This document shows positions 37,501 through 43,500 of a DNA stretch of 64,000 bases, piece by piece. Numbering within the stretch: the stretch's first letter is position 1; each line of letters starts with the position of its first letter. The DNA is from Echinarachnius parma (taxonomy: Eukaryota > Echinodermata > Echinoidea > Clypeasteroida > Echinarachniidae): the NCBI GenBank assembly GCA_037951105.1, contig JBAMJV010008321.1:62001-126000 (forward strand), in the 5' to 3' direction. The notes beneath the pieces were generated by a model. That model was not told where the DNA came from and searched no databases. It worked only from the letters and a program-made list of their open reading frames with translations. A program made the translations under genes and the position numbers.

Positions 37501-40500
37501 ATCCGTTTGGACTCAGCACTAGTAATAAGTACTGTTTTGGTTCCGTTGTGTGATTATCAAATAGCTACCCAACATTTTGCAAAGGGGGGTGTACATGTAA
37601 TTCATAGACAATGCAATTAATTACCACCACTTACGGAACCATACCCAGATAACAATGCTACGTTGGCCCATCGTTGGCCCAATGTAGGCGGTCATGTTGG
37701 GCCAACGTCAAAACGTCACGTTTTGCCCACGTCATTCTTGCCGCTGGGCCCTCGTCGGCCCAACCCCCATAAGCCAACGTCTTCTGACGTCAAGCCAACA
37801 TTGAGCCGACTAAACCCCAACGTTCATACGACTATATAAGTGAACGTTGGCCCTACGTTGGCTTGCCTACCGTCGTAATGCGGTTGTTTGTCAAACGTTA
37901 GTACGACGTCAACTAGCCAACCAATATCCAACGTAGTAGGCGAAACGTTGGCCCAACGTTTGCTTTTCGACCATATAAATATGATTGTTCGTCTAACTAT
38001 CACCCAACGTTGTTTCAACGTACATTTGCCGACCAGTTTGCCAACAGTCAACAGCCAACGTCGGCTTAATGTTGTTTTAACGTCAGCTCGCCGACTGCAA
38101 AAATATGGTTGTGAATTTACCGTAGGCCAACGTTGGCTAAACGTTGTTTTTCCAACCGCGACGGTGCCGACTATAGACTACGTTCCGCCAACGTCGCATT
38201 GTTATCTGGGATATTTATGTGGGAGTGGTGCATATTTAGTGCGTCAATTATTTGCTTTCTTCGTGAAAAATATATCAAGCCCGAATTTCCTATCTAGGTA
38301 TGCACCAGATTGCACAATTTCAAATCCATAAATGCACAATCTTTCTTACCGTGGGAGGGGGATAACCCCTCCCACCCCTTCCCCCTCCCTCCCTGCCCCA
38401 GCCCTCAGGCGCTTCGCTCCATCGGGACTCATTATTGGCAGTGTGTTGTTGGATCATACATAATGTTGCATAATTATGGTTTATGTTGTGTTGTATGTGT
38501 GTGTTTTGGGGTACATATTTATTAGTGTGTCAATTATTTGTTTTCTACGTGAAAAATATATTAAAACTTTCTGGTCGATCAAATCATATCACGCTTTCCC
38601 AAATACAGCCGAATTTCCTATCTAGGTATGCATCAGATTGCACAATTTCAAGTCCAAAAATGCAAAAACTCCCTACCGTGGGAGAGGGGGGGGGGGGGGG
38701 CGCAAGAATATACATTGATTAGTTCACTTTGTCATGTCCTGGTTTTGAAATAGGTTGAAGGATGTGAGCTGCATGATGACATAAATCAAAAGAATGTGGA
38801 AAATGTGTTTTTTTCTAATTTTTTTTGTTTTTAATCAAAACAATTCTCAGATTTATAATGATAAACTCCTTTTTTTTTTGTTACACAGAAATATATTTTA
38901 CATGATTCATGATACTACAAGTACACTAACCTAAACCATATGCATTTTCATGGAGCATCCCTGGTGGGTGGGTGGGTTGGTGGGTGGGTGGGTTGGTTGG
39001 TTGGTAGGTATGTACGTACTAAATTATCATTACGCGCGCACACAAACAAACACACAGACAGACACACACAAGCAAACAAACAGACAGACAGACACACACA
39101 CACAAGCAAACAAACATACCGACACTCACACACCCGCATACACATACACAAACAAACAAACACACGCATACACATACACAAACAAACACACACATACACA
39201 CGGACGCACGCACGGACGCGCGCTTGCACGCAGGCACGCACACACACACACATAGCAAGCACACACGACACACACACACACACACACGCGCGCGCGCACG
39301 CACGCACACATACACACACACACACACGCAACTTGTCATTGTACTGTAGATGAATCCTGAAATCTGGGTCTACACATCGTGGATACAATCCTGCACCCAG
39401 CGCCATCATACACGCACTGTACAACAACAGTACGCGAGTCATCATCCTTCACTTTCATTCATTGACTATCATGTGTACATTACCATACCAAAATGACTGA
39501 GGTCTGCATTACTCAAACGCCTCCAAATGAACTTGGGCAATTCCGTATGAGAGAAGGCAAAAACACCACATCTCAAAGTTGAGCAATCTTCCCTAAATCA
39601 AACTGTTATCAATAAAGGAAAACTTGAATTTTAGGAAACTGAAAACCTTTTGTATATAGCTCTATTGGTTTTTCAAATATTTCTGCTTGAATTGAACAGA
39701 AATTTATGACCTTATTTCATAAATCAGCTTCATTTTTATGAAAATAAAGTGAATCTTTTAATTCAATGACTGTTTCTGCTCATTTTCTCATATTTTCCAT
39801 ATGATATTGTAACAATCACAAATTGTAAAGCATGGGCAGTAACTTCATTGCATATTTTTTTGAGAAATTTTAAAAATCTATGCACATTTGATCGTAATTC
39901 CGTTACGATAAAACGTTTTAAGTTTTTATCAATATCTGATTACTTGTTCTTTGGTCATGTCATTGTGAATTCTCTTCCTTCACCATAGTCCTAAGAACTT
40001 CCAACATAATTTTCTGAAATAATGTCACTACTTTTTCCAAAAATGGCGTAACAGTATTAGTAATTCCGTTACGTAACGGAATTACACGCACATGGTTTGT
40101 AAGGTATTGAATGATATTGCTGAAATTTTTTTTTTCTTTCTTGTTCTGAATTGTAGAAATACCCTTTAAATAGCATGTAGCATAACTGTAGCCATGTACG
40201 TAGACAAAAAGTCATTATACATGTACTGTACAATGTTACTTTATGTGACTCATTGCCTCACATGCTTCATATTGCATCAATGGTGATTTAACTAAATTGA
40301 TACACGATAGATAATTTCTCTCTCCATGAACATAATAGAGATGATAATGTTCTATGATACTTCTATCATTAAATTAGTTTCTAGCAAGACCCACTTGACT
40401 GAAATTATGAAGATGCAGCAGATTCATGTTTGTACTTTAGAAAGGGAAAAACGAAAACAATAACACAAATTTAAAAATATCCAGTAATTAGTATCACACT

Positions 40501-43500
40501 GGTTCTACATTTATTTTCTCACATTAATTTACATTGATGCATTATAAGATATAAATCATACCTTCAACTTTCAAGGAGATTTAATATTAATAATTTTGTA
40601 TACATGTAGATTTGATTATCATTGATCAGTTAAGGGCTCATAACTCACCATTAATTATGTAAATTTGTATTAAACTGAAGCATATAAAATCAAACCTAAA
40701 TACAGAATAGGCTTCAAGATATTCAAAACTATATACATAATACAGGCTAAGATATGTTTTATTCATTATCATAAAGTCAGAATTCATTGAGTGTTCAGTG
40801 TGCTTCTGTATGCAGATCAAAGAAGATGTACAAAGTATTTGCATTTTCAAATGGGAATTCCTATTAGGTGTCTTTCATTTTTTGTAATTCGATATTTATA
40901 TTTGATATGCCAACTTTTTGTATTTGGATCATACATGTTTATATCCGATATCATGTATTTCATGGAATGAATGAAAACGCATTCCAAATTAATTTGAGAG
41001 TAAATTAAGATCACTTTAAGGATGAATTTTCAAAAGAATAATTTCAGAATATAACAAGAGTTTATATACAACAAATCTCGATTTTTTTGTAATTCCGTTA
41101 CGCACACACATAAATTCAGGATTTGTTCTGGTCCTTATGTAAGAGTTTAACAATTATTGTTTAACAATGCATACAAAATCTTTACTAGACTATAAGCAGA
41201 AAAATGTAACCAAGAAATTGCATTTTTATGGGTGGATTCATGGGTGGATTTCACAGGCGTAATTCCGTTACAGTGACATTAATTTGTCTTAAGGTAATTT
41301 CAGAGGTTAAAACAGATCATTTCTGGAAAAAAGATGTACCAAATTCAAGTTTGTAACTTACATGATAAGTTTTTATTACCAATGCAGAATTTTTTGAGGT
41401 AGCTTTTGCAGAAAATCATTACAAAATTAGTGTTGAATAAAAGACCACTTTCCGTTATGATTGTATTTTGGTCTCCTGACGCTACAGTGTTATAGATTTG
41501 TACCTCTAGTACCCCTGCCAGTTATTAAAGTTGTAAAAACTGTGGAAGTGAAAGGTATTTTAAATATGATTAAGAAAACAGAGCTAAAAATCACTTATTT
41601 GTCATTCTGTAACAGTGGAATTGCCCATTCACAATGCATTTCCATTCACACCTTGATTTTCAATATTTAGGAAGTTTACGAGGCTTTATAGCATTGAAAG
41701 TGGAATGATTTGACCTGTTTGTGATTTTAAATTGTTTAAATGTTTCTTGATATTGATGATGTGCAGTTCTTTAGCATGTCACATAATGTAGGTACTTTTT
41801 TTTTTTTTTTTTACTTTGGGTTTTTTCACAATTTAACCATTTTTCTTGAAGTAAAGGAAAAATTATAAAATGTTGCTATTTTTTCTTCAAATATGGTTAT
41901 TATTGTCACATTATTGATTTTTGAAAAGTATTGAAGCTAAAATGTGAATTCTTTGTTGTTCATGTACCGATTTGTGGAAAAGTTGATTTCACTGCTTAAG
42001 TTGTGTAATTCCGTTACACACTTTAGTGGACATAGTTTCTAGGATTTTTCTTTAATTTAATTGATGCAATCCTTTTTAATTCCTTGCCTACTAATATGAA
42101 GCTGAAAATAAACCAAAATAAAGCTGGATTTTAGCAATAGTTTTTTCAAATTTCACTCTTAATTGTATTTTGGCCATATTTTCATTCATTTAACACATGA
42201 CAAGTTTAAATATTGCTTTACAGATGTATCAAATTATGGTTTATATTCAAGTGCTAGATAGCCTTGATGTTTGCATTAGTATGTAAGAAAAGTTGAGTGC
42301 AAAATAATTGAGTTTACCTTGTAACTGTCAGAGAGGTAATTCCGTTACAATTTTGTGTAATTCCGTTACAGTGCTCTTTTTTCAAAAAAGTGAATTTGTG
42401 AACTTATCATTGTGTTGATTATGCACCTAATTGTTCCAAAGTGAAGTTGACATTATCAAGATAGAAAAAATACATAAAATCAGTTTCAAAGTGTCTTATA
42501 TTTCAGAGAAACTTAACGCAAACTTGTAGCAAAAAAAAAACTCCATTCTCCAGTAATTCCGTTACGGTCACACATATTGGTCTAGTGTGCAACAACACAT
42601 GGAAGATATAAAATCGTTTCCCTATCATTTTGTAGCCTGGCTGCCCGTGCAACTTATTTAAGTATCAACATTTACTTAAGTCATGAGAATATTGCGCAGA
42701 GAATAAAATAATGAGCAAAATAGGTCTCTGAATGTAATTCCGTTATGGTGGAATTGCCCACTTGCACAGGTCAAACACATCCTTGATATTGTGGTAAAAT
42801 ACATATCCATGGTAACACTCTTCAAAACGTGATAAACAATGTAAAAAAACAGATAACTAGACTGAAAACTAACTGCCTTTCTATCTACTGAAGCCTGGCC
42901 TTTCTATAAACTCCGAATAACTTTCGTTGCCGCAGATGGCGTATCGTAACAGCCTCTGCCAGGTCTCTCTGCAGTCATCTATAACATGCGCTCCCTCATG
43001 AAAATCCAAACCCGGCCCTAGCTAGCTGACTCAATAATCCTGCAAATTACTCATTTAATACTTTTATAACGGGGGTGAATTGACAAAATGCTACTTCAAT
43101 TTATAAATAAAAACAAAATAGATAAATAAATTGATTGAAAATTGATTGATTGATTGATTGATTGATATATTGTCTATACCTTATGTACAATTTGTACTGT
43201 ATGTCCATGGCTAGTGCAGTTGGCACTTCAACTAGCCACAGACCTCCCTCCCCCCCCCCCCCCCCCCCCCATGTGCCCCGACCACTGCAATAGGGGATGC
43301 CAATTATGGAGTCTTTCTGGCTAAATATGTCATGCCACAAAATACGACAGACTTGTTGAACCATTAGGATACGAGGATCATAACATTGAAGTACATTTTT
43401 ATTAAATGTCTTGTCTTTCTTTTTGATTGGTCTTGCCTCGGACTTGATGATTAATGTCACGGTCACAGCGTTCCGTTTTAATGATAGTAATTGGTTGTGA

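Follow-up and report, generated by a model that had tools for sequence, protein, structure and literature searches.

The window analysed here is a 64,000-nucleotide stretch of the echinoid Echinarachnius parma (contig JBAMJV010008321.1, positions 62,001 to 126,000 of the forward strand). It contains a complete non-autonomous transposon, element B (39535..42759, plus strand), through which a 13-bp word is dispersed. Element B begins with the terminal inverted repeat (TIR) GGGCAATTCC (39535..39544, +), ends with GGAATTGCCC (42750..42759, −) and is flanked by the target site duplication (TSD) ACTT. The word, GTAATTCCGTTAC (word a), has 26 matches in the window at two mismatches or fewer, against a mean of 1.58 and a maximum of 5 for shuffled controls. 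Nine sites in B are exact, eight of them on the plus strand: 39894..39906, centred 366 bp from the left end; 40060..40072 and the reversed 40073..40085 (−), which form a head-to-head pair; 41089..41101, which carries one or two mismatches in most other aligned copies; 41259..41271 and 42005..42017; and 42336..42348, 42357..42369 and 42553..42565, centred 417, 396 and 200 bp from the right end. A tenth site with one mismatch (GTAATTCCGTTAT, 42734..42746, +) stands 3 bp from the right TIR. Inside B, a sequence resembling the right end (a degenerate word, 3 bp and GGAATTGCCC; 41601..41626, +) recurs at the same place in copies L045 and L047, as if elements of this family had been assembled from joined shorter ones.

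Two further copies of the same family, family a, lie in the window. Element C (57602..60638, −) is complete and flanked by AGCA; element A is split into two parts (31059..33225 and 34422..34717, both +) by another element at 33226-34421, lacks its right end and ceases to resemble B at 34717. The interrupting element has, as judged by eye, the ends TAAGGCTGAGTC/GACTCAGCCTTA and an apparent 8-bp duplication, ATTGAAAG. The original prediction, made from the letters of the window, had reported three copies, the two complete ones with these ends and 4-bp duplications, nine exact 13-mers in B with one of them reversed, and a head-to-head pair at the same place in B and C. These statements hold, except that A begins at 31059 rather than 31069 and is interrupted, and that element D, the fourth to have these ends, had gone unlisted. 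The head-to-head pair occupies 60082/60095 in C and recurs with one mismatch at 31584/31597 in A. Six of the nine exact B sites are exact in C, one has a single mismatch (57796) and one has two (59084), while C lacks the ninth, where the B-C alignment has a gap. Neither B nor C contains a stop-to-stop frame of 150 or more amino acids. A DNA search of the genome with B as query, scored for the best 40 of 858 candidates, yielded 41 matches with identities of 98-100%.

Element D (3692..5464, +, TSD TGTA) has the same ends and a different word, word d (GTCACGCTGTTAC). Its six sites comprise exact copies at 4023..4035 (+), 4189..4201 (+), 4209..4221 (−), 5070..5082 (+) and 5439..5451 (+), and a copy with one mismatch at 5056..5068 (+), where 0.59 would be expected at up to two mismatches. 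The second and third sites face each other, and the last is 3 bp from the right TIR. D and B have no blastn match at E 0.001; both have a right terminus consisting of a word, 3 bp and GGAATTGCCC. Other genomic copies match D at 95-99% identity (best 40 of 2,174 candidates).

Both elements belong to dispersed multicopy families in the 1.2-Gb assembly, which comprises 14,790 contigs. Exact copies of word a number 6,800 (3,397 + 3,403), and those of its backward-read control 19 (10 + 9). There are 2,262 occurrences of GTTACNNNGGAATTGCCC and none of its control, and 9,756 of GGAATTGCCC with a non-G base 21 positions upstream, against 466 for the control. The last count of ends corresponds to an estimated 4,900 or so elements. 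Among the elements examined that have both 10-bp ends perfect, the 4-bp flanks match in 25 and differ in one (L063); they are uncheckable in L054, and copy A is broken. The mobile element of the original prediction is supported. The 25 duplications are 84% A/T, with ATAT in 6, and the combination of inverted ends with a duplication of fixed length identifies these elements as TIR (cut-and-paste) transposons.

Genome-wide, six words of 13-14 bp were identified: GTAATTCCGTTAC in family a (which has two layouts, a and a-long), GTCCTTCCGTTAC in c, GTCACGCTGTTAC in d, GTAACGCGAGTTAC in e, GTAACGTCAGTTAC in f and, as a terminal word, GTCACGGCGTT in h. Thirty loci taken by their right end (16 c, 7 d, 4 a-long, one e, one f and one with a degenerate end, g) contain, among six words tested, exact copies of their own family's word only. 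The separation is equally strict in 23 further-scanned elements, namely 7 of a with 53 own words, 5 of a-long with 44, 6 of c with 32, 3 of d with 19, one of e with 5 and one of f with 11, where foreign words number zero even at one mismatch. In a, a-long, c, d, e and f alike the terminal word is separated from the right TIR by 3 bp. Most words are loose dyads with the right half GTTAC; those of e and f have perfect 5-bp arms. Where two sites within one element are separated by more than 45 bp, their flanks are unrelated (identity 0.26-0.35, expected 0.28-0.29); most of the excess is a C that directly follows the word in a-long, c, d and f. An internal duplication, about 600 bp long, is present in family c alone. 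Identical words in unrelated flanks are most simply explained by a reader acting in trans. The families themselves are related, since clear patches of collinear similarity remain between c and d (73-75% over bases 1-87 and about 317-402, that is, the left end and the first site) and, at the ends, between a and a-long. Such a reader could be a host protein that the elements recruit, either an activator or an architectural factor, as the shortness of the word, the number of sites and the lack of any encoded protein in the copies examined would allow. We regard this as very improbable: a host protein should impose one word on all families, but the six words are mutually exclusive in the elements examined, and one word always adjoins the TIR.

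Two further observations concern the words. A second, ATGTC...TTT-like stretch adjoins the left TIR in c, d and f, with a close form in e and a weaker one in a and a-long, and is repeated immediately ahead of the right-arm site at about 198 bp (for example in L055, L057 and L040); it was judged by eye in one or two representatives per family. On contig C38, at about 304691-305070, three variant words GTAACGTGAGTTAC are spaced 187 and 177 bp apart, much as in e; they may mark a sub-family whose listed sites all changed in concert, or else CpG decay.

The words also occupy fixed places. Positions were determined in 12 elements from six groups, including two of the four short c elements. Counted from the left end, the first word is centred at 366 bp in seven of them (a, a-long, c and d), and otherwise at 370-371 bp (the two short c elements), 375 bp (f), 382 bp (e) or 338 bp (window element D, which has a deletion). 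Right-arm centres are found at 19 bp in all 12, at 196-200 bp in 11 (D lacks this site), and at 385-397 and 400-417 bp again in all 12. Right-arm sites are retained in the smallest elements (771-797 bp), where they lie at 19, 196-199, 385-397 and 400-411 bp. In representatives of a, a-long, c and d the left TIR and the first word are separated by 349 bp alike. We compared this stretch without gaps, as a gapped alignment of the left arm was uninformative (shuffled sequences scored as high). Its identity is 0.43 between a and a-long, 0.37 between c and d and 0.30-0.35 in the other four pairs, with shuffled sequences at 0.29-0.31.

Family h was known by its ends alone when it was predicted in writing, before looking, that its terminal word would recur at these places. 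Word h occurs 3,880 times in the genome (control 98), and it is absent from all 64 sequences examined, d elements included. Eight h elements with both ends listed carry exact words 365-373 bp from the left end (8/8) and, counted from the right, at 395-396 and 409-410 bp (8/8), 19 bp (7/8) and 198-199 bp (5/8). This is the layout of d, the left ends of h and d differ at 1 of 31 bases, and h is probably the sister family of d, which makes it a fair check of the private word and a weaker one of the spacing.

All centre-to-centre gaps shorter than 450 bp in the six representatives measure 164-226 or 342-355 bp. The best period is 186 bp, and its score was matched by none of 2,000 random placements; as the families are related, this figure should not be taken for a probability. 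In longer gaps the period is not clearly visible. The gap lengths are close to one and two nucleosome repeats, which suggests that the sites may lie in nucleosome linkers.

Change inside the words was compared with that in neighbouring stretches, as the original prediction had recommended. In the filtered comparison, a row was counted at a site if its 25-bp flanks were at least 70% like the consensus, the same rule being applied to controls; this dropped 1 of 9 rows in a, 6 of 16 in c and none in a-long (6) or d (8). The words contain 12 substitutions in 2,490 bases against a control mean of 1.62%, with 1 of 20,000 control draws as low, and thus change about three-fold more slowly than their neighbours. 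A terminal site had been required for locus collection; with that site removed, the filtered counts are 9/493 in a, 1/312 in a-long, 0/780 in c and 2/489 in d, beside control rates of 2.45, 2.02, 1.23 and 1.09 percent, and a single far site accounts for seven of the nine changes in a. Over full elements, counting sites exact in at least one copy, family a has 8/978 changes inside and 764/26437 outside the words, a-long 1/585 and 295/18644, and d 1/268 and 62/5124. Loci of a and a-long were collected mainly through exact 13-mer matches and lean to intact words, whereas those of c and d were collected from right ends. Slower change inside the words is supported with a caveat, since tests lacking the local-homology filter were mixed or non-significant, and with the same caveat it answers the condition that the original prediction had set for its refutation, 13-mers mutating as fast as flanking bases. 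The original prediction had also offered host silencing or insulation as a role; neither finds support, and the conservation of words within families speaks against a host silencing target.

We favour, at slightly better than even chances, the interpretation that the dispersed words are sites of a family-specific protein, the transposase or a partner, needed for the mobility of these non-autonomous cut-and-paste transposons. It draws on the private words, the site 3 bp from the TIR, the arm layout kept in elements of 0.77-0.80 kb and the slower change. A transposase supplied in trans would recognise the GGGCAATTCC ends and make the 4-bp, mostly A/T duplications, and the 13-14-bp words are the predicted binding sites of this transposase or of a partner encoded by the autonomous element. 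The word-binding protein would probably be a dimer, as most words are loose dyads ending in GTTAC. Given the site 3 bp from the right TIR and the fixed places in both arms, it would assemble on both arms within the transposition complex; longer elements carry more internal sites, and the sites may lie in nucleosome linkers. A private word in each family suggests that protein and word changed together, so that each family would answer to its own protein. The bound protein of the original prediction would follow naturally, and its interpretation as a whole is supported in part; it had not extended to the fixed spacing or to other families that combine these ends with words of their own.

Several observations weigh against this interpretation. 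Several arms lack a matching site, and none has one near 198 bp from the left end; window element D, with no site near 198 bp from the right and a left arm shortened to 338 bp, is still a complete insertion. Terminal words depart from GTTAC in B (GTTAT) and in h (GTTTG), and gaps inside the words of d (18 per 593 bases) exceed those of controls. The deep-internal sites of long elements exceed the apparent needs of a complex formed at the ends. Slower change inside the words also depends on the local-homology filter. An unfiltered test on the right 1.5 kb is mixed by family, random sets as low numbering 1766 (a), 98 (a-long), 47 (c) and 2534 (d) per 5000, and a pooled test filtered by whole rows is non-significant (42/2413 inside, 901/41863 outside; 2781 of 10,000 as low); in each of the two, inserted or unrelated sequence at far row ends interferes. 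Finally, no autonomous element or protein was found among the copies examined, a small part of the estimated 4,900 or so elements.

Failure of the unfiltered conservation tests would be expected if layout and words were functionless leftovers of common descent, regular because the families are related and the copies young. Near-identical copies within families in the scored sets (98-100 percent for B, 95-99 percent for D), the correspondence of d and h and the collinear patches between c and d and between a and a-long agree with such a history. We nevertheless consider it improbable that descent alone accounts for the pattern: a, a-long, c and d keep an equal length of 349 bp across a stretch whose identity is at most weakly above that of shuffled sequence, the words differ between families at all sites together, and the filtered substitution test speaks against it.

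The original prediction had further suggested looking for a longer autonomous copy with a DDE gene, which did not turn up among the copies examined; an autonomous partner may exist among the others. A 15.4-kb stretch between d ends on contig C32 was considered as an autonomous d element. It contains a gene piece matching P2RX7_C (PF20478, 2.3e-7) and further pieces that we take to be transposase-like, which have no Pfam or PDB match. Its interior occurs without d sequence on two other contigs, and d sequence at 37 places stops at the C32 junction (in both comparisons, best 40 of 2,809 candidates), so that we rejected it as a nested, unrelated element. This nested element, roughly 13 kb long, starts at about 1797 of L058 (C32) and is also present on C14001 and C5332, with a P2RX7_C-like gene piece; its presumably transposase-like pieces contain introns, and other lineages of these pieces occur, one with a 715-aa open frame in several copies. 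A second rejected candidate is an open frame of up to 136 aa in a-long, which has 151 matches (150 of 413 candidates scored). In the copies compared we do not regard it as a working gene: changes are not concentrated at third codon positions, and it has no Pfam match above the cut-off. Five further loci share the a-long layout; the three complete ones contain no longer coding frame, and two (L059, L060) are cut short of the right end.

Elsewhere in the window, a 598-aa open frame at 21178-22974 (−) presumably encodes a transposase of the pogo-like (DDE_1) kind with a PHD-like finger at its C-terminus. At three places (8143-8817, 17923-18677 and 51481-52330) a GTCC array is found next to a 151-bp tandem repeat of similar sequence.

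Among the matches listed in the literature searched, outside which most subscription papers lay, there was no report of this arrangement, and the publications listed for sequence strings were unrelated and contained none of the 13-mers. The closest parallel is with the VANDAL transposons of Arabidopsis, which are Mutator-like and make 9-bp duplications where the elements here make 4-bp ones. Short, family-specific VANC motifs are described for VANDALs, with many copies in non-coding parts (available parts of PMC5735166 and PMC10398659), VANC21 binding a short motif in the non-coding parts of VANDAL21 and related VANDALs having other motifs (available parts of PMC5735166). The likeness lies in a family-specific motif with many copies in non-coding transposon DNA, differing between related families. 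By analogy, a transposon-encoded protein could bind the words along the element and remove silent chromatin, with little part in cutting, and the words would diverge between families in an arms race. Sites over the whole length of long elements, private words, non-coding location and gaps of nucleosome-repeat size are all consistent with this, and we consider it unlikely but with an appreciable chance. The fixed 3-bp distance between word and TIR and the layout kept in elements of 0.77-0.80 kb suit an end complex better, and no VANC-like gene was found in the copies examined. VANC targets, moreover, are tandem and expand by tandem repeats (available parts of PMC5735166), whereas the sites here are not in tandem but have unrelated flanks and fixed spacing. 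Between assembly of a transposition complex and chromatin opening along the element, the complex is our first choice.

A bolder proposal, possible but in our view rather doubtful, is that the exclusive words, one or two per nucleosome linker, are each read by a co-evolving element-encoded protein that opens chromatin and licenses its own family only, as a non-plant counterpart of VANC. If true, the families would form a natural series of protein-word pairs on one end scaffold, in which specificity switching could be read directly and a nucleosome-scale spacing rule tested by chromatin mapping over thousands of similar copies, and a sequence-specific anti-silencing system or chromatin-aware transposition complex would extend beyond the plant case.

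Other known systems are similar in single features. CENP-B boxes, the satellite-DNA sites of a transposase-derived protein, are also repeated at nucleosome-scale distances; they belong to satellite DNA, not to mobile families with private words. Repbase assigns elements to one superfamily when they have the same TSD length and at most one mismatch in their first 11 bases (available parts of PMC4455052); single representatives of a, c, d and f agree to this degree, and e does so at the right end, its left end having changed. As in Sola2, the target duplications are A/T-rich and 4 bp long and the TIRs short, but the TIR common to both ends is 10 bp here and 12-13 bp, or 21 bp and imperfect, in Sola2 (available parts of PMC3627910). 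By their ends and duplications the elements resemble Sola2, with membership not established. They stand apart from CACTA transposons, which have CACT(A/G) termini and a 2-3-bp duplication, through their GGGCAATTCC ends and 4-bp duplication. CACTA/Spm and Ac/Ds elements carry subterminal arrays of short sites at either end, to which a protein encoded by the element binds, and are similar to this extent; in the elements described here, sites also lie deep in the interior, their distances are fixed across families, and each family has a word of its own.

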